Virus record (IMG/VR): IMGVR_UViG_3300001460_000040
Span: 9,427 to 31,132 of that record
Source: a virus
DNA: 21,706 bases
Strand: one strand, 5' to 3'
A program made the translations under genes and the position numbers. Under the pieces are notes generated by a model. The model did no database searches. It had not been told where the DNA came from and saw only the letters and a program-made list of their open reading frames with translations. Below, piece by piece: positions 2,997 to 21,654 of the stretch (the stretch's first letter is position 1; each line of letters begins with the position of its first letter).

Positions 2997-3422
2997 TTAG
3001 ACGATGAGTTGCTTTATCTCTAATTCAAATTCATCTATGTTTGCCAACTCTTCGTAAAGTTTATTCAGTGCTTTACGTGATGATGCAACGGCAACCTTAT
3101 CGGCCATTAATTCAGTTCCTACAGCTATGCAACCTTGCAGCTCATGTGGAAAGTTGGCTGCATGAATCAATATGTGTGTTCTATTCGGTACATCGGTTAC
3201 TTCAAATGTATTACCAAATCTAGGACTATTTACTCTTTTACAAATATATGTGTTTTGCGGTATGCAACTTATATTTGGTGCGTTGTCTAACCAAGGTCGT
3301 TCGACTGTGTGAAAAAAACCACCTTGAAACCAATCATAGCGTCCAGTTGGATACCATAGTCTTCCTAACGTTCCTCTTGGATCGTAAGAGTGTCTTGTAA
3401 GTTCTAATTTTTCTAAGCTCAT
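2997..3422 (-). CDS. DUF5675 family protein, probable wall-active lysis protein
   Basis: This 141-aa protein matches my memory of DUF5675: LTR...GTLGRLW near residues 8-23, HTVERPW at 38-44, SCIPQNTY at 52-59, ILIHAANFPHELQGCIAVG at 84-102. The His-87 and Cys-98 spacing (IH..N....GCI) resembles the HG...S.GCI layout of L,D-transpeptidases, so an enzymatic role on peptidoglycan is plausible but unproven. It directly follows two membrane-protein genes, which is where an endolysin is expected, and no other lysin gene is visible in this window. No clear Shine-Dalgarno sequence precedes the ATG, so translation may be coupled to the 33-aa gene ending 2 bases upstream. Confidence 0.85.
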   Translation of the reverse strand: MSLEKLELTRHSYDPRGTLGRLWYPTGRYDWFQGGFFHTVERPWLDNAPNISCIPQNTYICKRVNSPRFGNTFEVTDVPNRTHILIHAANFPHELQGCIAVGTELMADKVAVASSRKALNKLYEELANIDEFELEIKQLIV

Positions 3423-3424
3423 AT

Positions 3425-3526
3425 TTATAGTTTTTTTATATATAAAATTGTTAATGCAAGCAGAGATAGTGTTATTAACACTATTCCATATTCATTCATG
3501 TCTCCGAACAATACTGGTTCATTCAT
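3425..3526 (-). CDS. 33-aa single-span membrane peptide in the lysis cassette
   Basis: A short frame starts at the ATG overlapping the TGA of the holin-like gene (ATGA) and ends 2 bases before the DUF5675 ATG. The peptide begins MNEPVLFGDMNEYG, then has one hydrophobic helix (IVLITLSLLALTILYI) and a KKL tail. This is an N-out/C-in-looking single-pass topology. The exact fit between two genes with an overlapping start argues for a real gene. A second holin, antiholin or spanin-like accessory are possibilities; the sequence does not decide between them. Confidence 0.65.
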   Translation of the reverse strand: MNEPVLFGDMNEYGIVLITLSLLALTILYIKKL

Positions 3527-3786
3527 TTATCCAGTAATAATGAATCTACTTTTGCGTCTAATCTGTTGATTGAATCTATTATTGAAGTTTGTTGCTGTAA
3601 TATTCTGTCAACGTCTTCAGCTAAATCTTTTTTTGTAACGTACATCTTTGCGGTTTCAATACGAAAATCAGACAAGGTTATCCTTAACTCAGCGTTTTCT
3701 TTTTCGTTTTTGCGGATACCATATAAAAGCGGTGCTGCGACCAAAGTTATAAATGCATTCCAAACTATGAGTGGGTTTATTTCCAT
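3523..3786 (-). CDS. Holin-like membrane protein with C-terminal coiled coil
   Basis: This 87-aa protein has one N-terminal membrane segment (PLIVWNAFITLVAAPLLYGI, residues 5-24), a Lys/Glu-rich region and a long amphipathic helix ending in a heptad-like stretch (IIDSINRLDAKVDSLLL). One transmembrane helix plus a cytoplasmic or periplasmic coiled coil is common among phage holin or lysis accessory proteins. Its position first in a cassette with a 33-aa membrane peptide and a putative wall enzyme supports a lysis role. The start is immediately downstream of a terminator hairpin, and the only Shine-Dalgarno-like bases (GGGG) lie in the 3' arm of that hairpin, so expression may be conditional. 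Confidence 0.72.
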   Translation of the reverse strand: MEINPLIVWNAFITLVAAPLLYGIRKNEKENAELRITLSDFRIETAKMYVTKKDLAEDVDRILQQQTSIIDSINRLDAKVDSLLLDK

Positions 3787-3790
3787 ATAT

Positions 3791-3822
3791 AAAAAAACCC
3801 CAAAGGAAAAACTCTGGGGTTT
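3791..3822 (-). terminator. Hairpin terminator or attenuator in front of the late operon
   Basis: On the minus strand an 8-bp perfect stem (AAACCCCA / TGGGGTTT, arms at 3815-3822 and 3795-3802) with a 12-nt loop is followed by further T residues, the form of an intrinsic terminator. It ends 4 bases before the holin-like ATG. Transcription of the lysis-packaging genes, whether from the early block or from a promoter in the 120 bp upstream, has to pass it. Confidence 0.75.
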
Positions 3823-3834
3823 ATTTGATAAGTT

Positions 3835-3932
3835 CTAGGATACGTTTACTATGAGTATAGGTGACAAATGATAAAAAATTATATTGTTTGTAGAATTAAA
3901 ATTCTTGAAAAGATACAATTATCGTATCCTAG
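3835..3932 (-). promoter_or_regulatory. Inverted-repeat-bounded putative late promoter/operator
   Basis: This non-coding stretch between the small HTH gene and the terminator has a 10-bp perfect inverted repeat at its ends (CTAGGATACG at 3835-3844, CGTATCCTAG at 3923-3932). Inside it, on the minus strand, is a TATAAT hexamer (3878-3883). Upstream of that is a short palindrome AGAATT-AA-AATTCT, which would fall in the -35/spacer area. No good -35 hexamer is seen, which is what an activator-dependent promoter would look like. The 75-aa HTH protein encoded directly upstream is the obvious candidate regulator. Inferred from sequence pattern only. Confidence 0.4.
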
Positions 3933-11350: not shown

Positions 11351-12100
11351 ATGGCTAATCAACGTCACGCAGTTACAGAAACTAAAACAACTAAAGTTCC
11401 TGTTCAAAAAGCTAACGGTTCTGCTAAGAAAGTAATCAAAGCAGAAACACAAAATACCATCCCTGAAGATAAACAAACTCACGTATCAATATCAGGAAAA
11501 AGTTATGAGTTAGTCTCTAGCAGAAAAGTACGTGCTAGGACTGATAACCCTGATTGGCGATACATAACTGAAAGAATAGACAGAAACGATCCATCAATGG
11601 TTGAGTTTGTTTGCTATATAGTAAAAGGAAAGTTCAAGTGGGATGAATATGGTCAAATAGTTGGTGATGTGATTGCAACTGGATACGCAGAAGAAAATCG
11701 TGACTCTAGCAGAATCAATAAAACATCAGCAGTTGAAAACGCAGAAACCTCGTCAATAGGAAGAGCATTAGAATCAGCAGGTTATGGCACTGGCCCATCA
11801 GCTGACGAAATAAAAGTTGCTATAGATGATCCTATCCAACAACTTAGAGAAGTAATAAAACAATATCTCAAAGAAAATAAAGATGCATTAATGGGGCATT
11901 TAGATATTGGCGGTGAAGGCGGTAGATTTCAAGACTTTAATCATTATTTAGAGTATTGCGAATTAGGTGATGGCAAAGCATACAGGTCATTAACAGAAGT
12001 AAATCAAGTAGGTCCATTAACTAACTTGTTAGGAAAACTTTTTATGGCTGTACAGTCAAGAACAGAATTTTTAACACAAGTTAAAACTACAAAAAAATGA
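11351..12100 (+). CDS. erf: ERF-type single-strand annealing protein
   Basis: This 249-aa protein belongs to the ERF superfamily of phage recombinases, which anneal complementary single strands. The core is at residues ~50-145: SISGKSYELV, FVCYIVKGKF, DVIATGYAEE and AVENAETSSIGRALESAGYG. The last motif (..ENaeTSaiGRaLa.~Gyg) is the family signature. The C-terminal ~100 residues are helical. It overlaps the exonuclease gene by 4 bases (ATGA), the expected annealase-exonuclease pair, acting on ends processed by YqaJ. It starts with a good GAGGAG site. Confidence 0.9.
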   Translation: MANQRHAVTETKTTKVPVQKANGSAKKVIKAETQNTIPEDKQTHVSISGKSYELVSSRKVRARTDNPDWRYITERIDRNDPSMVEFVCYIVKGKFKWDEYGQIVGDVIATGYAEENRDSSRINKTSAVENAETSSIGRALESAGYGTGPSADEIKVAIDDPIQQLREVIKQYLKENKDALMGHLDIGGEGGRFQDFNHYLEYCELGDGKAYRSLTEVNQVGPLTNLLGKLFMAVQSRTEFLTQVKTTKK

Positions 12101-13080
12101 CTGATTTAAAAGAGATACAGGCTTTAGAGCCTAAAGAGGTCATGATACCTCAAGGCACAGAAGCTTGGTTGCATTACAGACAACACGGTAGAAACAATAA
12201 ACCATATATAACAGGTACAGGTATGCCAGCAATCGTGCCACACCCTGATATTGAAGGTAAATATTGTCAGACTCTTTTTGAAACAAATTGCCCACAGGCA
12301 TTAGCGGATTTACTTAATGGAAAAACAAAAATTAATGTACCTGCCCATATCCTTGGACACGGTAATGATTACGAAGACGAAGCAAGACATGCTCTTGAGC
12401 AAATTACAAATAAAAAATATACACCAAGAGTTTATGAAAAATGGAATTGGCTTGCATCACTTGACGGTGAAACTGATTGTGGTGAAACCTTATGCGAAAT
12501 TAAATGCCCTTGGTCGCAAAAAGGTGGACATTTATGGAAAGATGTCTCTAAAGGAATTGTCCCAGAAGCCTACAGATGTCAAATGGCATTACAGTTCTTG
12601 GTCGCTCCGAATGCAAAACAAATTGACTTCTATGTTTACGCAAGTGAAACACAAGAAGGATTGTACATAGAATTATTTAAAGAACATTTTGAAGATTTGT
12701 TTGAGCCAATGGTTCAAGCTACAGAGGAATTTGTTTATAAATTTGATTCTGGATATTACGATCATCCGGAAATAAAAAATGAACATACTCTTGCTTTTAT
12801 GCAAGAGCACAGAGAACTTATTGCTAAACAAGCAGAAGTAAAATCATTAAAAGAAAAATTTGATGATAAAAGAGAAGTGATGTGGAAACGTCATGGTAAC
12901 TTTAGTTGTGATGGATTTACTTTTACAGGTAAACAAATTGCAGCGTCGGTAGGATGGAAATCAATAGTAGATTCTATTATTGAAAAACATCCTGAACTAG
13001 AACTTGAGATTGAGGACATTGTATCTGCACACAGAGATTCAAAGGAACTCGGTTTTGGATATAAATTTAAGGAAATATAA
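12097..13080 (+). CDS. YqaJ/lambda-exonuclease-type recombination nuclease
   Basis: A 327-aa protein with the YqaJ order: IPQGTEAWLHYRQH at ~18-30, ITGTGMPAI, GHGNDYEDEA with E93/E95, ASLDGETD with D123, CEIKCPW with E134 and K136, and YRCQMALQF with Q162. These are the metal-binding D...ExK and the flanking Glu/Gln residues of the lambda exonuclease fold. It would resect double-strand ends so the ERF annealase can act. The C-terminal ~120 residues are helical and may contact ERF or SSB. The upstream ERF gene overlaps its start by 4 bases. Confidence 0.92.
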   Translation: MTDLKEIQALEPKEVMIPQGTEAWLHYRQHGRNNKPYITGTGMPAIVPHPDIEGKYCQTLFETNCPQALADLLNGKTKINVPAHILGHGNDYEDEARHALEQITNKKYTPRVYEKWNWLASLDGETDCGETLCEIKCPWSQKGGHLWKDVSKGIVPEAYRCQMALQFLVAPNAKQIDFYVYASETQEGLYIELFKEHFEDLFEPMVQATEEFVYKFDSGYYDHPEIKNEHTLAFMQEHRELIAKQAEVKSLKEKFDDKREVMWKRHGNFSCDGFTFTGKQIAASVGWKSIVDSIIEKHPELELEIEDIVSAHRDSKELGFGYKFKEI

Positions 13081-13082
13081 AT

Positions 13083-13361
13083 ATGGAAAATGAAAAAGAG
13101 TTTGCGCAAGGTATATATGTGAACAAACCTAAACAGGACTTTATAGCAGCAGATTTTGGTATCAAGATAGCTGACTTTGGACCTTGGTTTATGGAGAAAG
13201 CAAAAGCTGCTAAAACAGCAGGTGATGACTTTATAAACATACAGTTCAAAGAAGGTAAATCAGGGAACATGTACGCAGAAGTTAATAACTGGAAACCTAG
13301 TAATGATGGTGGTAATGAAGTTTTCAGTTCAGGCGGTAACGATGAAGACGTACCGTTTTAA
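13083..13361 (+). CDS. Small protein with SSB-like acidic tail
   Basis: This 92-aa protein ends in NDEDVPF, equivalent to the DD[DI]IPF tip of bacterial SSB that recruits repair proteins. The body is a short beta-rich stretch (QDFIAADFGIKIADFGPW, then DFINIQFKEGKSGNMYAEVNNW) consistent with a minimal OB-like or ssDNA-binding domain. It starts 2 bases after the exonuclease stop. With annealase and exonuclease it forms the usual three-part recombination module. The OB assignment is inference; the tail is plainly visible. Confidence 0.72.
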   Translation: MENEKEFAQGIYVNKPKQDFIAADFGIKIADFGPWFMEKAKAAKTAGDDFINIQFKEGKSGNMYAEVNNWKPSNDGGNEVFSSGGNDEDVPF

Positions 13362-13421: not shown

Positions 13422-13450
13422 ATCAAGTTCTCTACTAATAGGAGATATTT

Positions 13451-13813
13451 GTGAGCCATCTAGTTTTAACAAGAAAAACTGGCAGCAAGGTATATTGTGG
13501 CTACCAGTTAGAAAAGGAAGATCTTGAGCAAACCAGTGACTTTATTATAGGAATAGAAGAAGTAACTGGCGGACTAAAAGAAAGGAAGGTTGAGTTTTCA
13601 GTAGAAAATTCAAAAGACAGGACAACTAATAGTTTTATATTATCTGCCGACAAACAAGAAAAGCAGATAGGTGAATCGGCTGAAGTAACTTTAGTATTGA
13701 TAGACGTGGTATCTAGCACTAAAGAAAATGAAGGAAGGCCAATACCAAAAGCTAGGATAGGAATAGAAGCACCTAAAAATATGAAGGTGTACCGTGACGA
13801 TATTAATAAATAA
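13451..13813 (+). CDS. CsrA-like RNA-binding protein, apparent single-chain pseudo-dimer
   Basis: A 120-aa protein, twice the usual CsrA length (~60 aa). Residues 4-16 (LVLTRKTGSKVYC) match CsrA strand 1 (LILTRRVGE). Residues 78-118 (EVTLVLIDVV..., then RIGIEAPKNMKVYRDDI) match the C-terminal half of CsrA, with R115 at the place of the RNA-contacting R44. Between them lie a diverged CsrA C-half (FIIGIEEVTGG, then KVEFSVEN) and a diverged N-half (FILSADKQEKQIGE). So two CsrA units seem fused, each with one good and one decayed half. In CsrA dimers each RNA site combines strand 1 of one subunit with the last strand of the other, so this chain would hold one complete site. GTG start with AGGAG upstream; it lies in the recombination/integration operon. 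Confidence 0.78.
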   Translation: MSHLVLTRKTGSKVYCGYQLEKEDLEQTSDFIIGIEEVTGGLKERKVEFSVENSKDRTTNSFILSADKQEKQIGESAEVTLVLIDVVSSTKENEGRPIPKARIGIEAPKNMKVYRDDINK

Positions 13814-13824
13814 AAGGAAACACA

Positions 13825-14052
13825 ATGACAGAAGAACAAAAACAAGGTGAGCCTGTAAATCTTAATGATATTGCAATAGCAGTTGCAGCAATAGATAAAG
13901 CATCTAAAGCAGGTGCCTTTGACGGACAAGATTTAGAAGTTGTCGGTGGAACAAGAAACAGACTAAATGCACTTGTGCAAGCTTCACAACCTAAAGAGCA
14001 AGAACCTCCAGTAGTAGACGCAGAGGTAGTAGAAGAAACTGCGGCGGAGTAA
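13825..14052 (+). CDS. Hypothetical acidic protein, 75 aa
   Basis: The N-terminal half is a small conserved-looking module (LNDIAIAVAAIDKASKAGAF, then LEVVGGTRNRLNALVQA). From memory, similar short LNDI...ID.A..RGAF...EL..VG..R proteins occur in many aquatic phages without an assigned role. The C-terminal 20 residues are acidic and Pro-rich. It has a clear AAAGGAAAC ribosome site and its stop overlaps the next start (TAATG). Confidence 0.78.
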   Translation: MTEEQKQGEPVNLNDIAIAVAAIDKASKAGAFDGQDLEVVGGTRNRLNALVQASQPKEQEPPVVDAEVVEETAAE

Positions 14053-14291
14053 TGTCTGAAGAGTTAGTTGTGTTACCGGTTTTGATACCGGACATTGAAA
14101 AAATAACACAAGACTTTCCGGCATTTGCAGGTGAGCCTACTGAAAATTATTTTTTTAGGCTTTTATCTGAACGTATAAATTTAGAGCAACCAATTATTAT
14201 GGAAATTATGGCTTGTCTAAAAGCAGCACAGTATCAAGAATTAAATAACATTATGTTAGACGCAATAATTAAAGGAGAAAACATACATTGA
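14052..14291 (+). CDS. Hypothetical protein, 79 aa
   Basis: A small acidic helical protein (ERINLEQPIIMEIMACLKAA, preceded by FPAFAGEPTENYFFRLLSE). It lies between the 75-aa gene and excisionase and overlaps both (TAATG upstream; TTGA with the excisionase start). No family recognised. A GCGGAG ribosome site lies at the end of the preceding gene. Confidence 0.7.
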   Translation: MSEELVVLPVLIPDIEKITQDFPAFAGEPTENYFFRLLSERINLEQPIIMEIMACLKAAQYQELNNIMLDAIIKGENIH

Positions 14292-14566
14292 AACCAGTAT
14301 TAAACGCAGACGAAACAGCAGAATATCTAAGAGTTACGATCATTACAGTTCGCAAATTGGCTAAAAAAGGTGAAATACCATGTCAGAAAGTGGGACGTGA
14401 CTATAGATTTTTATCCTCATCTTTGGATGCATGGTTGACAGGAAGTATAAAATTGAAGGAAAAAAAGGAAGATATATGGGACTACACAAACGCAAAGGAT
14501 CCGACAATTGGCATATTAGAATCAGTCACAACGGACGAGAAATACGAAAAACTACTGGAACAGTAG
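14288..14566 (+). CDS. xis: Excisionase (HTH_17 / MerR-like), TTG start
   Basis: This 92-aa protein opens with the excisionase DNA-binding domain at residues 1-50: LNADETAEYLRVTIITVRKLAKKGEIPCQKVGRDYRF, shown here by LNADETAEYLRV and KKGEIPCQKVG only. This is the winged-helix fold of Xis/HTH_17 proteins that bend attP/attR DNA and direct excision. It starts at TTG with AAAGGAG 10 bases before; no ATG fits the conserved N-terminus. The 3' end overlaps the integrase start by 91 bases in another frame, linking Int and Xis expression. Confidence 0.85.
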   Translation: MKPVLNADETAEYLRVTIITVRKLAKKGEIPCQKVGRDYRFLSSSLDAWLTGSIKLKEKKEDIWDYTNAKDPTIGILESVTTDEKYEKLLEQ

Positions 14567-15537
14567 ATAAGAAAAAGGCCCAAAGAGTCCATGATGAACT
14601 TAAAGCAAAGTTGTGGAATCTCAAATACACAGATGAAAGTCCTGAGTATAAATGGGAAGACGCAGTAGTAAGGTATTTAGAGAACAAAGAGAAACAGGTA
14701 ACTGACCATGAGCTTAAATACAATATTGAATTTGCTGCTCCATTCTTTCGTGGTTGTAACATTAGAGATATTGATAGTGATCTTGTTCACAAGGTCATAC
14801 AAGAACGTAGAAAAAGAGTTAAGGGTGCTACTGCAAATAAGGCCGCAACTCACTTACGCAGAATATTTACAGCTGCAAAAAGATGGGGATGGATCGATGG
14901 AGTCCCTAATTTCCCTCGCTATGAAGAAGAGCCAAGAGAGCTTGCCCTTACCAAGAAAGAAGCAATAATATTTATAAATGCTTTACCTGATTATCTTAAA
15001 AATATGACTTCGTTTTGTTTATCCACGGGCTTACGAAGACATAACATAACTCATTTAAAGTGGACATCATATAAAGAAGACCAAAGAGAGCTGCATATAG
15101 AGTCTAGAGAAACAAAAAACAAAATTGCTTTAGTAATACCTTTGGTTGGCTCGGCAATAAAAATTTTACACAAACAAAAAGGAAAAGACCCTGTTTGGGT
15201 TTTTCCTAGCCCTAAAAAAAATGGCTATCCATTAACAACATTGGTTAATGATTCTTGGAAAAAAGCAAGAAACGAAGTTGCAGTAATTACTAAAAATAAA
15301 AAATTACATAAACTTAAATTCCATGACATGAGACACACTTGGGCAACTTGGCATGTCCAAGCCGGAACAGATCCTATTAGCTTAATGAGAATGGGTGGCT
15401 GGACAGGAACTAAAAGTATGAATAAGTATGTAAATTTACAGTCTGATCACTTGCATAAAATGGCCAGAAATATAGAAAAACCGCACAAAAACCGCACAGT
15501 TCCTGAAACTATAGACTTTATAAAAGATGATGATTAA
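14476..15537 (+). CDS. int: Tyrosine-type phage integrase
   Basis: I place the start at the ATG of MGLHKRKGSDNWHIRI (353 aa), as this matches the usual integrase arm-binding N-terminus (MGL.kR.gs.~W.i.i) and has AAGGAAGATAT before it; an upstream ATG at 14431 would add 15 residues. Order: arm-binding N-terminus, SAM-like core-binding domain (~55-145), catalytic domain with R187 (STGLRRHNI), H283 and R286 (HDMRHTW), W309 (GGWTG, replacing the usual His) and nucleophile Y318 (NKYVNL). It inserts the phage at a tRNA-Ser; attP directly follows the gene. One arm repeat lies within its last codons (15481-15500). Confidence 0.95.
   Translation: MGLHKRKGSDNWHIRISHNGREIRKTTGTVDKKKAQRVHDELKAKLWNLKYTDESPEYKWEDAVVRYLENKEKQVTDHELKYNIEFAAPFFRGCNIRDIDSDLVHKVIQERRKRVKGATANKAATHLRRIFTAAKRWGWIDGVPNFPRYEEEPRELALTKKEAIIFINALPDYLKNMTSFCLSTGLRRHNITHLKWTSYKEDQRELHIESRETKNKIALVIPLVGSAIKILHKQKGKDPVWVFPSPKKNGYPLTTLVNDSWKKARNEVAVITKNKKLHKLKFHDMRHTWATWHVQAGTDPISLMRMGGWTGTKSMNKYVNLQSDHLHKMARNIEKPHKNRTVPETIDFIKDDD
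15481..15500 (+). repeat. 20-bp attP arm repeat, left copy
   Basis: Identical to the copy at 15721-15740. It lies within the last codons of the integrase gene (KPHKNRTV). Probable arm-type integrase binding site, with two CCGCACA units 11 bp apart. Confidence 0.75.
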
Positions 15538-16250: not shown

Positions 16251-16358
16251 ACCGGCTTTGATCAATAAGCCTCTAGATATAACTTTAACTTCTTCTTGTT
16301 CTTCTTTGGTAAGTTTTTTACCTTGAAACGATTTTGTTAACGATTTGTTTTGCGCCAT
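16224..16358 (-). CDS. Hypothetical 44-aa protein at the end of the late operon
   Basis: A 44-codon frame starts MAQNKSLTKSFQGKKLTKE and ends RGLLIKAGLDKTNTDF. It has a good AAAGGATT ribosome site and starts inside the last 41 bases of the giant gene, in another frame. It is basic and helical. The tight overlap and ribosome site support a real gene, probably the last of the late operon; family unknown. Confidence 0.65.
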   Translation of the reverse strand: MAQNKSLTKSFQGKKLTKEEQEEVKVISRGLLIKAGLDKTNTDF

Positions 16359-19300
16359 CACTGAATCCTTTTGGTTCTGCTTTGATACCTAAGCTTCTAT
16401 ATAAATATTGTTCGTAAAACCATAATATAGCCTGTGCATCTCTAGCTGTATTGCCTGTTCTATCTGCTACATTATACACCCATTCTTGCATAAGTTTTCT
16501 TTCTGTATCGTTTCTAGGTGTGCTTACAGTACCATCAGATCCGAGATTACCTTCTAACAATTTTCCGGTATGTCTGTTATGTGCTTTGGTCATCCATAGA
16601 TCTATAGTGACGTCTTCTACACCATGTAAGTTTGCTATAAATGCTCCAACTTTTGGACCAAAAATTAACGTACCTAAAGTTTCTGTGTCTTGATTACCGG
16701 CTATACCGTGTGATGTATACACACCAGAATCTATTTTTATTTTTCTAAGATCTTTAATTTTGTGTTCAGTTAACAGATACTCAGCCGCACCTGTTTCACC
16801 ATACTGACCAACTAACCAATTCATAAAATCTAAAGCTTTTTTACTTGAACCTCTTGGGTCCCAAGCAGTGTTTGGGTTGCCAGAAAAACTATCAACTGTT
16901 TTTACTCTAGGGAATACACCGTCTTTGACATAATTCATCATGACTTCAGTGGCAACTTGCCAGTTCATAGGAACTTCTGAGGCCGGTGAGGTTACACCTG
17001 CTACCACTAGTAAAAGTGAAGGCATGTGCTTAACAGTTTTAAGTTCTGGAATTATTTCGCTGGTAATTTCAATAGCATCTGCAATGTCTTGATCATACCA
17101 ACCCTTACCAGTTATATCTTGTGTCATTTGAAACTCAAGATCAGCAACACCTTTGTCAATGACTATGTTTTTGTCTCTTGTTTTAGATACGTCTAACTTT
17201 CTTTTTTTATGACGTTGATTGTGATCTTTCGTGAAATACTCAGCTAAATCTTTAACTGTTACAACAGTGCCAGCAGATCCTCCAGATGGTTTTACTTTTG
17301 TTGCGTCGTATCGTACCAGCCGTCCATTATCGAGCCTGTTTTGGTTTTGGTCCTTTGCTCCCATTCCATATAAGGCTCCCCCTTCGTCAGGGCCTCCTCT
17401 ACCATCTCTACTTGTTTCTCCAAGCTGTAAGCTTTGCGTACCTCTGGTGGGACTGGATGACCGAAAGTGTCTTCGTATTTTTTTAGCCGATCTAAGAGAG
17501 GCTGTCTTTTCAGTATTGAGCTCATTGTCTAATCCTTTGTAAAATTTATACGCTTCTGGAGCGTGTTTTGCAAGCAGTTCTGGGTTAATTCTATACAAAG
17601 CTGACATCTGCGCTTGCACTTCGCCAACTAATGTTTTTATAGGGCCTGTGACACCTGTAGAGGCTACATTTATAGAAGTCATAAGAGAGTCAAAGGGATA
17701 ACCTAAAAACTCAGCATAGCCTTCTATATCGTTTCTATAAATATTATAAGCTTCTTGTGTAATCGGTCCGAAATTTTCTATAAATTCTGCATTTAGTTTT
17801 ATATTTTCTAGTCCATTTAAACCAAGATCTTGATTCCAAAAATATTCTGACGACCATGACAATAGTTCATTAGAAAGATCCTGATCATTAAACTCAGGCA
17901 TTCTATTAATGGCATCCGGTATATGTCCTAGTTCGTGTGCCAATAAAGAAGTAACAGACCATCTTGCGTTTGCTTCGCCTTTATTTGCATCAGCTAATTC
18001 TTTTTGATTGATAGCAATAATGCCTTGATCTGGATACGTAACTCCTGATCTATTTTTGCTTGGCATCTGACCAAATTGTTTAACTGAATTTATTAAAATC
18101 TTGGGCATGCCTGCATCTATCAAACTGTCTAATCCTGCTGCAAAACTGTTTTTGTTTTCACCAGTAAAAGGTAGAACGTCTTTGATGCTGTCTGGTATAT
18201 CTGTTAAAGGTTTTTTATCTATATCTAATAAAGTTTGTTTTTTAGCTTTAGTCTTTATTGTTATTTCTGGTTTTTTAGCTGTGCTAAGTTTTGTTCTCCA
18301 GCTTTCACTAAATAAAGGCAAGTTGCCTTCTCTGATAGCGTCTTTCAGTTCTTCGGTAAGTTTTATTCTTCTGTAACCGCCAACTAAGGTTCCAATTAAC
18401 TCTTCCTTTAAAGGCTCAACAAATTTACGTGCTTGTTTTTCTGTTTTAAAGAAAACTATTTTTGCTTTTTCTCCTGCACCTACTGAATAGTAAGTTGGTG
18501 CTGTATCTAAAGTTCCATCAATAGGATCAAATACTGTAGCTGATATGTCGACATACTCTCCAGCTCTGTCATTAGGAGGCACTTCAATGAGATAATAATC
18601 TTCATTAGGATCAATTTCTTTTCCATCTAAAGTTTTGCTTTGCTCAATTGAATTAGTGTCTTTAGGCGCTTCTACTACTTTTACATTTCTGACATAATTT
18701 TCAGCCATTAATACATCTGGAACATATCGGCTTTGATTAAAGGTGTCTTGTCCTTCAGCTACTGTTTCTGGTTGGATACCATACGATTTCAGAAACTTTA
18801 ATCTGTTCATCAATATGCGATTGTAAAAATAAGCAACACCTTTTGTTTCGTCACCGGTTCCATAAAGATCGGTTTGTATACTTCCCCAAGGTATTTCTAG
18901 TACATCAACACCGTGATCAACCATGTGTACTAATAGATTTTTTATACCCATTGTGGCCCAGCTGTCTTGCTCCATAAAAGGCATACTTTGGTCGTTCGAA
19001 GCATTTTGTGCCCAATCGCTTTGTATCTCTACTAACCTAAATTTTCTTTCGTTATTCTCTGTTAGATAGCCGCCTCTGACATGGGCATATGTGCCTTCAG
19101 GAAAACCGTGTCCAGTTCCTGTGCCTATAACTTTCATGCCTTCTTCGTCTCTAGGCTTGATTTGCATAGACAGCTCTACGTAGCCAATAGGATCATATTC
19201 ATATGCTATTTCGTACGAATCAGGTACATAAGATGACCATGAAGTTGAATCAAAGTCTCCTGAGCTTGTAGTGGAATATTCACCGCTTAAATGATTAAAA

Positions 19301-21654
19301 ACTGAATCTCTAGCAGCATTCTCTTGATCAAAAATTTCAATGTTACCATTAGGCTTTCGGTGTATATAAAGCATTCCGCTCCAAGCACCTGATTCATCTT
19401 TCAAATATTGCCAAAGTGGATTGTCATACTCGGTATCTCCTGTACTATTATTAAAAACAAAATAGGTGTCTCTGAGCATACTCTCGTATTCTTGCCAAGC
19501 TTCGTTAAATTCACTTAGTTGTTCTTGGGTGACGTCAATAGGATCTCGATTATTGCGAAGAAAACCAGCACCAGAAACATTACTTTCATCTATAGCCATC
19601 ATCCAAGGCAAAAATCCATTAGCTGTTGCATTTAAAAATCTACTTGTAATTCTCTCTACATCTTTCTCTAAGTAACCTGAAAGTGCAAACCTGTAAGCAG
19701 CGCTATAGTCTGATGGATCGCCACCTTGATCTTCAAAATTTATATCTCTTTCAGTTAGCATAAAATCCATAAAATTATCTGTAAGTCTTTGTTCTAACAG
19801 AGCTCTGTCTTGAAAGATTGCGCTGTAGTTAGGTATTTCGATGACATCTCTAGTTTCTTCTACATAATCATATTCTGTATCTACAACAGCTAAACTACCG
19901 ACCCTGTTAATAGCAGCTTTTGGCAAAGTATCCATTGTCTCTATACGACTCTGGATGCCATCACTGTCTATAGGACGACCCACAAGTGCGTTGATTGCTA
20001 CATCGTGATCCGTAGTAAAATTTTCAGGATTGTCGCCATAGCCCTCTGTGTAACCAGCATCAGCTTGCTCATCAAACGTTATCTCGTCATCAAAAGAATA
20101 ATTACCACCGGATCCTCTTCTTTCATCAGTGGTCATTAATTTAATGATGTCGTGCTCTTGCATTAAATTTGCTATGCCTTGTAAGGTGACTGTTTCTTTC
20201 TCTCCGGTTTCGTCTATTTCAGCAAACTCTAATGCGTCTAAACCAGACCAAGCCATTTCTGATTTCTTAACCAGACCTTTCTTTTCAATGAGACGTAATG
20301 CATCTTGAAATTGTTCTTCAGTAACTTCTACGTTTACAAATCCTGCACTACGTTTTTCATTAGGGTCTACAAGATTGAATAATTCTGATCTGGCTTTGGA
20401 TGTAAATGTTTCATCAGGAAATGGAAATTGATTTGCTTGTGCGCCTTCTGGATTGGCTGCGTATAAAGGCAATGCGTTATCAGGATCTGCTTCTAACTCA
20501 ACATTGGGTTGTGTGCCGTAATAACTTATAGCCTCTGCAACACTAGGAACACCTGAAGCTAATCCTTCAGCTGCTACATCTATGGGACTGTAGACCTCAC
20601 CTTCTGATGCCAACTGTGCACCTGCCTCACCGGCAGATTCAACAAATGGAGCTGCTGCTGTTCCTGCAACTTTTTGTCCTATAGTCTTAGCAAAAGGTAG
20701 ATAAGCACCTCCAACAGCATTTGTTAAACCTACAACTGACGATCCTCTGGCTGCGTCTGTCTTAGCCTCTTCAAAAAACTCTGGATCTTCTAGCGCCATT
20801 CTTATGGCATTAGGATCATTAACATTAACTCCACGTCTTTGCAGCACCTCTTGTAATCTGCCTATATAGTCCAGTCTAGCGGCCATTACAGATCCACCAG
20901 CAATAAAACCAGCCGGACCAGCAGCCATTCCACCTGCTACAGATGCGCCTATTGTCATGACCATATTAGGGGCTTGAGTCAAAGTTAACTCTGTCAATAT
21001 AGTTACAGGTGCACTTATAAAGTCCTCCCACATCGATCCTTTGTTTTCTAAAAACTTTTGCGTTTCTGGACTAAAACTTATACCAGCCTCTTCGGCAGAA
21101 ATATCTACTGCCTTTTGTAATAATATTTCTACAGAATTAGGATTTAATACAGCCTCTGCATCGGCTAACCCTTGTTGTTTGATGTTTTGTAGATTTAAAT
21201 TTAAGTATGGATTACTAGCTGCATAACGACTAACAAAGGTTTCTTTGTTACTGTTTTTTATTATTTTTTCGTATCTAGTCTTTTCTGCTTCTGTAAGATT
21301 TTTCTGGCGCTCTGCCATTTCAATCGCTTTATAGATGTATGTTCTAGAAGCAACGTCTCTTGCGCCTTTTTCCAAAAGCTCGCCAGATCTTGAAATAGAT
21401 CTATAAGACACAGGATCTTTAAATTGAACTGTTTTGGATGAAGGTAATTTTATATTTTGATGTGTTATTAGATTAGGATCTAAAGATTGTTTAAAATCTA
21501 GATCTATTTTTTGATGCTCTTCTCTTGCTCTGATATTAGCCGGATGGTGTTGTAAAGTATCTTCACCTTGCTCAAACTTTCCTTTTAATAACGCAAAAGA
21601 CTCAATTTCGCCTGCTTCAATTTGTGGTTTGAATTTAATTAAGAGCTTGCTCAT
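16318..21654 (-). CDS. Giant multidomain virion protein (1778 codons) with HELGH zincin motif
   Basis: A single open frame of 1778 codons, the last large gene of the late operon. Visible parts: charged helical N-terminus (~1-205); membrane-active-looking Gly/Ala-rich segment (~212-260, APNMVMTIGASVAGGMAAG); mid region with the EIQSDW motif (876-881) and following helix-loop GVDVLEIPWG, seen in many large phage polyvalent proteins; a zinc protease-like HELGH (1240-1244) with a candidate third ligand in YAEF (~E1315); an Arg/Ser/Gly-rich linker (~1377-1454); and a C-terminal phage domain (~1455-1778) with FGPKVGAFIANL and TIDLWMTKA. A likely role is an internal virion or DNA-ejection protein carrying enzymes into the cell. 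The linker is coded in a different frame from a convincing small gene, so the frame may be two genes or a recent fusion. Confidence 0.82.
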   Translation of the reverse strand: MSKLLIKFKPQIEAGEIESFALLKGKFEQGEDTLQHHPANIRAREEHQKIDLDFKQSLDPNLITHQNIKLPSSKTVQFKDPVSYRSISRSGELLEKGARDVASRTYIYKAIEMAERQKNLTEAEKTRYEKIIKNSNKETFVSRYAASNPYLNLNLQNIKQQGLADAEAVLNPNSVEILLQKAVDISAEEAGISFSPETQKFLENKGSMWEDFISAPVTILTELTLTQAPNMVMTIGASVAGGMAAGPAGFIAGGSVMAARLDYIGRLQEVLQRRGVNVNDPNAIRMALEDPEFFEEAKTDAARGSSVVGLTNAVGGAYLPFAKTIGQKVAGTAAAPFVESAGEAGAQLASEGEVYSPIDVAAEGLASGVPSVAEAISYYGTQPNVELEADPDNALPLYAANPEGAQANQFPFPDETFTSKARSELFNLVDPNEKRSAGFVNVEVTEEQFQDALRLIEKKGLVKKSEMAWSGLDALEFAEIDETGEKETVTLQGIANLMQEHDIIKLMTTDERRGSGGNYSFDDEITFDEQADAGYTEGYGDNPENFTTDHDVAINALVGRPIDSDGIQSRIETMDTLPKAAINRVGSLAVVDTEYDYVEETRDVIEIPNYSAIFQDRALLEQRLTDNFMDFMLTERDINFEDQGGDPSDYSAAYRFALSGYLEKDVERITSRFLNATANGFLPWMMAIDESNVSGAGFLRNNRDPIDVTQEQLSEFNEAWQEYESMLRDTYFVFNNSTGDTEYDNPLWQYLKDESGAWSGMLYIHRKPNGNIEIFDQENAARDSVFNHLSGEYSTTSSGDFDSTSWSSYVPDSYEIAYEYDPIGYVELSMQIKPRDEEGMKVIGTGTGHGFPEGTYAHVRGGYLTENNERKFRLVEIQSDWAQNASNDQSMPFMEQDSWATMGIKNLLVHMVDHGVDVLEIPWGSIQTDLYGTGDETKGVAYFYNRILMNRLKFLKSYGIQPETVAEGQDTFNQSRYVPDVLMAENYVRNVKVVEAPKDTNSIEQSKTLDGKEIDPNEDYYLIEVPPNDRAGEYVDISATVFDPIDGTLDTAPTYYSVGAGEKAKIVFFKTEKQARKFVEPLKEELIGTLVGGYRRIKLTEELKDAIREGNLPLFSESWRTKLSTAKKPEITIKTKAKKQTLLDIDKKPLTDIPDSIKDVLPFTGENKNSFAAGLDSLIDAGMPKILINSVKQFGQMPSKNRSGVTYPDQGIIAINQKELADANKGEANARWSVTSLLAHELGHIPDAINRMPEFNDQDLSNELLSWSSEYFWNQDLGLNGLENIKLNAEFIENFGPITQEAYNIYRNDIEGYAEFLGYPFDSLMTSINVASTGVTGPIKTLVGEVQAQMSALYRINPELLAKHAPEAYKFYKGLDNELNTEKTASLRSAKKIRRHFRSSSPTRGTQSLQLGETSRDGRGGPDEGGALYGMGAKDQNQNRLDNGRLVRYDATKVKPSGGSAGTVVTVKDLAEYFTKDHNQRHKKRKLDVSKTRDKNIVIDKGVADLEFQMTQDITGKGWYDQDIADAIEITSEIIPELKTVKHMPSLLLVVAGVTSPASEVPMNWQVATEVMMNYVKDGVFPRVKTVDSFSGNPNTAWDPRGSSKKALDFMNWLVGQYGETGAAEYLLTEHKIKDLRKIKIDSGVYTSHGIAGNQDTETLGTLIFGPKVGAFIANLHGVEDVTIDLWMTKAHNRHTGKLLEGNLGSDGTVSTPRNDTERKLMQEWVYNVADRTGNTARDAQAILWFYEQYLYRSLGIKAEPKGFSDGAKQIVNKIVSR
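17292..17525 (-). CDS. 77-aa gene overprinted inside the giant gene
   Basis: In another minus-strand frame lies a 77-codon gene starting MSSILKRQPLLDRLKKYEDTF and ending WYDTTQQK. Its composition is that of a natural helical protein (RLKKYEDTFGHPVPPEV, then EMVEEALTKGEPYMEW), while the giant frame over the same bases is Arg/Ser/Gly-rich and low-complexity. The ATG has an AAAGGA ribosome site 7 bases upstream. It sits between the zincin and the C-terminal domain of the giant frame. I think this is a real gene, and that the giant frame reads through its DNA as a linker. Function unknown. Confidence 0.65.
   Translation of the reverse strand: MSSILKRQPLLDRLKKYEDTFGHPVPPEVRKAYSLEKQVEMVEEALTKGEPYMEWEQRTKTKTGSIMDGWYDTTQQK

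Follow-up and report, generated by a model that had tools for sequence, protein, structure and literature searches.

A double-length CsrA-like protein with one predicted RNA site in the recombination-integrase cassette of marine temperate phages

The csrA2 locus

The DNA analysed here, referred to as the window, is a stretch of 21,706 nucleotides from a 45.6-kb virus contig, an identical copy of which is present on a second contig. The window carries, in this order, genes for a 249-aa phage protein, a YqaJ exonuclease, a small protein with an SSB-type tail, a CsrA-like protein that we named CsrA2, a further small protein, an excisionase-like HTH protein and an integrase (Table 1). A 1778-aa open reading frame on the minus strand (16318-21654) fills a quarter of the window. 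Neither Rfam families nor tRNAs were found within it.

The original prediction had described a 120-aa open frame of about double the length of CsrA. This was confirmed, with a GTG start preceded by an AGGAG Shine-Dalgarno sequence, and the double length proved to be shared by the whole family. The csrA2 open reading frame is real and its product is related to CsrA.

Table 1. Features of the csrA2 locus (positions are those of the window; residues are those of CsrA2)
Feature	Position	Strand	Basis
249-aa phage protein (phrog_11717), at the place where locus L153 has a Sak single-strand annealing protein	11351..12100	+	PHROG match
YqaJ/RecE-type exonuclease	12097..13080	+	Pfam YqaJ, E 6.3e-10; PHROG RecE-like
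92-aa protein with SSB-type acidic C-terminal tail (..DEDVPF)	13083..13361	+	upstream neighbour of csrA2
Shine-Dalgarno AGGAG of CsrA2, with GGA within	13440..13444	+	sequence
csrA2, single-chain CsrA-like protein (CsrA2), 120 aa, GTG start	13451..13813	+	ORF; Pfam CsrA; 56-member family; AF2
First strand 1 (LVLTR, residues 4-8); R8 = CsrA R6; predicted retained half of the RNA site	13460..13474	+	highest conservation, 3.41 bits
Hairpin, residues 31-53, predicted strands 3-4 of the first CsrA unit	13541..13609	+	AF2 strands 31-40 and 45-53; no CsrA sequence signal
Residues 58-65, read as second strand 1	13622..13645	+	AF2; strand-1-like, not strand-5-like
Residues 70-117, CsrA strands 2-5 of the second unit	13658..13801	+	hhalign probability 95, E 3.1e-8; 0/60 shuffles
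Last strands 4-5, RIGIEAPKNMKVYRDDI; R115 = CsrA R44; predicted other half of the retained RNA site	13754..13804	+	R115 and P108 100% conserved
Small 75-aa downstream cassette protein	13825..14052	+	ORF; small ORF at the equivalent place in most loci
HTH_17 excisionase-like protein	14288..14566	+	Pfam HTH_17, E 1.4e-12; PHROG excisionase matches
Phage integrase	14431..15537	+	PHROG integrase, E 4.8e-52

Sequence relationship to CsrA

The Pfam CsrA family (PF02599) matched residues 101-118 of CsrA2 with 28.3 bits against a cut-off of 27 (E 1.7e-6). The two stretches that had been taken for the CsrA ends, the N-terminal LVLTRKTG (residues 4-11) and the C-terminal RIGIEAPKNMKVYRDDI (residues 102-118), held up, as both are kept in distant homologues. 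The CsrA contact residues L4, R6 and R44 and the APK loop are present in the window protein as L6, R8, R115 and A107-P108-K109. The resemblance to CsrA exceeds chance, because homologues with 23-32% full-length identity keep both ends and because residues 70-117 align with CsrA strands 2-5 at E 3e-8 in a profile comparison (0/60 shuffles). The CsrA profile was built from 13 sequences, four of them references (E. coli, P. aeruginosa RsmA, RsmE and B. subtilis) and nine taken from fetched loci.

With the same profile, residues 2-20 aligned with CsrA strands 1-2 (0/100 column permutations), and residues 57-77 gave a second match to these strands, with a score of 9.74 compared to a permutation maximum of 7.95 (0/100). 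When only the strand-1 part (residues 58-69) was permuted, the score was lowered in 184 of 200 cases; the remaining 16/200 make this part suggestive, not decisive. No match to CsrA strand 5 was detected in residues 54-70, residues 19-69 alone gave no CsrA signal, and a direct comparison of the N-terminal with the C-terminal half revealed no similarity. By sequence alone, the protein thus contains two strand-1/2 motifs and one strand-3/5 motif.

These results changed the assignment of the middle of the protein. The stretch FILSADKQEKQIGE, proposed as a decayed N-terminal half, lies in the region of the second strand-1/2 match, which stands as a whole, while its strand-1 part taken separately is as uncertain as described above. 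EVTLVLIDV had been assigned to the same decayed half; instead it is the third strand of the C-terminal CsrA unit, which is well preserved. For FIIGIEEVTGG/KVEFSVEN, regarded as a decayed C-terminal half, no CsrA sequence similarity was detectable, although the expected hairpin was predicted (residues 31-40 and 45-53). Since residues 19-69 have no CsrA match by the criterion set in the original prediction, the case for this half comes from structure prediction alone.

The profile results also bear on a simpler explanation, according to which CsrA2 is one ordinary CsrA unit that is interrupted after strand 1 and before strand 2 by about 55 non-CsrA residues and still forms a two-site homodimer. 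When aligned to CsrA as one unit, CsrA2 indeed shows a single large insertion after strand 1, a construct lacking the insertion scored 38.7 bits with Pfam CsrA compared to 28.3 bits with it, and the lack of signal in residues 19-69 points in the same direction. However, CsrA strands 1-2 are matched twice, and the length and both ends are conserved throughout the family. Together with the structure predictions described below, this makes an insertion unlikely.

A family of double-length homologues

Scanning with an alignment of the window protein and CsrA yielded five distant homologues of double length, and later scans yielded 53 and then 106 viral loci on uncultured viral contigs. A six-frame search of the fetched loci resulted in 56 unique family members, 116-134 aa in length, which form 13 clusters at 65% identity. 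CsrA2 was also found on two marine Gammaproteobacteria MAG contigs, one of them assigned to Porticoccaceae. Among 369 genomes of this class searched with a profile, CsrA2 was found only in the Porticoccaceae MAG, next to one borderline match riddled with stop codons. No credible homologue was found when five family members were compared by tblastn to 50,697 GenBank phages; matches in Erwinia and Microbacterium phages were rejected at E 0.3. A tblastn search of the window protein against plasmids returned chance matches at Tn3 transposase loci (E about 5).

No dedicated CsrA2 family was found in PHROGs or Pfam, and Pfam CsrA matched 11 of 29 family members at E<=1. Ordinary csrA is present in 85 GenBank phage records, on at least 500 IMG/VR contigs and in 48 of 61 genomes of a Porticoccaceae sample, which are relatives of the host. 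Two loci, L017 and L018, resembled CsrA2 relatives and turned out to encode ordinary phage CsrA of 66 aa. In these loci a long Gly-Asp/Ser-Tyr repeat open reading frame (3389-3901) lies upstream of csrA, and the b3-b4 loop of this CsrA is enlarged.

Predicted structure and strand order

AF2 predicted the window protein as one domain with a pLDDT of 85.6 and a pTM of 0.77, with two of the five models being poor (pLDDT 64). A second family member, L021, was also predicted as one domain (pLDDT 86.5, pTM 0.76), and its five models ranged from about 82 to 86.5. Both predictions have the same strand order: b1, b2, a short helix, b3, b4, one strand, b2', b3', b4' and b5'. In these models a single strand, residues 58-65, connects strand 4 of the first unit with strand 2 of the second, and no strand 5 is predicted for the first unit. 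A short helix (H25-28) is inserted in the model of the window protein, which has no C-terminal helix; in L021 this helix comprises only four residues. Thus, the prediction for two members is a single nine-strand domain and not a CsrA fold with a separate insertion domain. This continuous chain, in which the strand order mimics that of a CsrA dimer, argues further against the insertion explanation.

We compared the models to single PDB chains with Foldseek, a library that is ill suited to a domain-swapped dimer. The window protein matched RsmF (4k59) at E 0.13 and probability 0.85, which is not significant, and no CsrA match was obtained for L021. Against viral models, four unnamed proteins of 88-201 aa were found at E<1e-3 (query TM 0.55-0.61).

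In the CsrA dimer the two sheets have the order b5A-b2B-b3B-b4B-b1A and b5B-b2A-b3A-b4A-b1B (PMC3791407). Given this order, running from strand 4 straight into strand 1 of the partner is a natural route for a single chain. The predicted nine-strand order is likely to represent a tandem CsrA pseudo-dimer without strand 5 of the first unit; this topology was inferred from the order of the predicted strands. In such a pseudo-dimer one composite site, made of strand 1 of the first unit and the last strand, would remain.

We consider it probable that CsrA2 has a single-chain, one-site CsrA architecture, with strand order and single site as predicted by the models. In this architecture two CsrA units would make up one fused chain, reduced to nine strands. 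Once b5A had been dropped, b4A would turn tightly (residues 54-57) into its sheet neighbour b1B. Strand b1A of the first unit and b5B of the second would form one normal CsrA RNA site, and the mirror site of b1B and b5A would be lost, as strand 5 is absent from the first unit and the second strand 1 no longer carries its contact residues. This protein would be expected to behave as a monomer, to bind one (A)NGGA site and to be unable to bridge two. In the literature searched, which left out most subscription journals, we found no description of a tandem or single-chain CsrA; the nearest systems were RsmN, the CsrA proteins of mobile elements and engineered heterodimers with one site.

Conservation of the two ends

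The key contacts of CsrA are L4 and R44 (PMC7652899). Across the CsrA2 family, R8 (CsrA R6), P108 (P37), R115 (R44) and residue 4 of CsrA2 itself, a Leu, are 100% conserved. The mean information is highest in strand 1 (3.41 bits), followed by the last strand (3.19), and lower in the middle strand (2.13) and its hinge (1.73). The half-specific conservation that the original prediction asked for was therefore observed, with maxima in strand 1 of the first unit and in the last strand. In the second strand 1, Arg or Lys occurs in 0-19% of the sequences per column, with 0% at residue 64 and 3% at residue 66, and the predicted lost site has equivalents of neither R6 nor R44. The proposal that one site was kept and the other had decayed is consistent with the absence of Arg and Lys at the R6-equivalent position of the second strand 1; it needs correction for the first strand 5, which according to the models is missing and not merely decayed.

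Two further features of the family were noted. The motif YGG..LD..DLEGTFDHR.W.R (residues 15-36, 13493-13558) is strongly conserved, spans the first strand 2 into strand 3 and is not accounted for by the CsrA fold. Most members (84% weighted) contain a CxxC pair in the b3'-b4' loop, at residues 94-97 in L021, which is possibly a zinc knuckle; the window protein and L010 lack it.

csrA2 is part of a recombination-integrase cassette

The surroundings of csrA2 were compared to those of ordinary viral csrA. A YqaJ exonuclease is encoded upstream of csrA2 in 54/54 loci (5/80 for ordinary viral csrA). In 53 of 56 loci (2/80), the immediate upstream neighbour of csrA2 codes for a protein whose acidic, SSB-type tail ends in PF, and this gene usually lies 8-14 bases ahead of the csrA2 start. 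A same-strand integrase lies downstream in all 43 loci (0/80). We conclude that csrA2 is a fixed part of an early recombination-to-integrase operon in temperate marine phages. With this invariant position upstream of the integrase, the earlier suggestion of a lysogeny-specific regulator gains support.

The SSB-tail neighbours (..DD[ILV]PF) fall into at least two unrelated-looking types that occupy the same place, and none of those compared, including that of the window (13083-13361), had a Pfam or PHROG match. Possibly these neighbours are single-strand DNA-binding proteins of phages that have so far escaped recognition. An ordinary single-unit csrA directly follows a phage SSB in L212 (3531-4213), and in L210, L222 and L223 it is found shortly after YqaJ; these are possible relics of the ancestral arrangement.

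This genomic context would also fit a role of CsrA2 as a single-stranded nucleic-acid-binding accessory of phage recombination without any translation control. The neighbouring exonuclease and SSB-tail genes are present in essentially every locus tested, L153 additionally carries the Sak annealing protein, and the plasmid-encoded RsmQ binds GGA-containing single-stranded DNA in vitro (PMC9928087). However, the residues that read GGA in RNA (CsrA R6, P37 and R44) are invariant, and a non-specific single-stranded DNA binder would not need them. No CsrA protein is known to act in recombination, and we consider this role quite improbable.

A possible role in translation of the operon

As csrA2 is always located between the recombination genes and the integrase, it may control the entry of the virus into dormancy and its exit from it. 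When only one of its sites works, CsrA is unable to bridge two sites and does not fully repress glgC (PMC7652899), and single-site repression by CsrA has been reported for hfq (Baker 2007, as cited in PMC7652899). The inability to bridge, together with the existence of a natural single-site target, favours single-site repression within the phage operon. Among the roles considered, the leading one for CsrA2, though short of an even chance, is that of a translational repressor of the recombination-integration operon. CsrA2 would cover one GGA overlapping a Shine-Dalgarno sequence and thereby repress translation. The most plausible target would be its own operon, that is csrA2 itself, the excisionase or the integrase, and CsrA2 would in this way tune the lysogeny decision.

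We searched for CANGGA at Shine-Dalgarno sequences and found it in 29/46 integrase contexts, compared to 64/201 for other open reading frames, 1/43 for csrA2 and 3/38 for YqaJ. Because the contexts are related, this enrichment is a weak lead to the integrase as a target, and the Shine-Dalgarno sequence of the integrase in the window does not contain CANGGA. In integrase leaders of the family (for example L049, L129 and L149) the Shine-Dalgarno sequence is often part of a small hairpin, in which it occupies the 3' arm while the 5' arms differ between leaders. Local pairing at integrase Shine-Dalgarno sequences was not significantly above that of other open reading frames (p 0.085), so we do not claim these hairpins as a feature.

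Alternatively, CsrA2 could be a decoy that occupies GGA on CsrB/RsmZ-type sponge RNAs or on mRNAs of the host and thereby shifts the activity of host CsrA, or that mixes with host CsrA. Relatives of the host do carry ordinary csrA, as described above. In addition, RsmQ forms heterodimers with Rsm proteins of the host and also binds its sponge RNAs (PMC9928087), and glgC is not fully repressed by CsrA heterodimers that have one site (PMC7652899). On the other hand, csrA2 was never found outside the recombination-integrase cassette, which indicates a local, phage-internal role, and a single-chain pseudo-dimer should swap subunits less readily. We regard a decoy function as unlikely.

CsrA is a textbook homodimer, and its two RNA sites permit bridging and cooperative binding of sponge RNAs. 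If our reading is correct, a natural one-site chain would offer a ready-made separation of function with which the purpose of the second CsrA site could be probed. In addition, how marine temperate phages control integration could be approached anew through a widespread and so far unnamed phage regulator that is fixed between recombination and integrase genes.

Comparison with known systems

In the pL operon of phage lambda, recombination genes and then excisionase and integrase are carried on one early transcript, and sib controls int post-transcriptionally. The csrA2 cassette resembles it in that recombination genes precede the excisionase and integrase and, as proposed for CsrA2, in the control of int after transcription. 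The two differ in that lambda int is controlled through an RNA element acting in cis and RNase III and not through a CsrA-like protein. As a tentative reading, slightly less probable than repression of the operon as such, a dedicated one-site, single-chain CsrA that became fixed in the recombination-integration module might regulate the translation of integrase or recombination genes and be the protein counterpart of sib control.

With CsrA, RsmA and RsmE (PF02599), CsrA2 shares the RNA-contact motif, made up of LxLTR and GIxAPxxxxVxR, and the alignment of strands 2-5. These proteins are two-site homodimers of 55-75 aa with five strands and a C-terminal helix in about 60 aa, whereas CsrA2 is a chain of 116-134 aa with one predicted site, nine predicted strands and little or no C-terminal helix. 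RsmN/RsmF of P. aeruginosa (PMC3791407) also has a rearranged CsrA fold, with a helix inserted between strands 2 and 3 and no C-terminal helix, and 4k59 was the best CsrA-type Foldseek match. RsmN is, however, a two-site homodimer of 71 aa with a helical insert of 16 residues, while CsrA2 has double that length, carries the insertion in the first half only and unites both halves in one chain. RsmM and RsmQ are likewise CsrA homologues of mobile elements, a phage and a plasmid (PMC7366521, PMC9928087), but they are ordinary single-unit proteins, and none of the 80 ordinary viral csrA loci compared here has an integrase just downstream. CsrA heterodimers made in the laboratory, in which one subunit carries R44A (Mercante 2009, as described in PMC7652899), resemble the form predicted for CsrA2 in having one RNA site per functional unit and no bridging. 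Those heterodimers were engineered, whereas the predicted one-site form of CsrA2 seems to have arisen naturally and to have become fixed in evolution.
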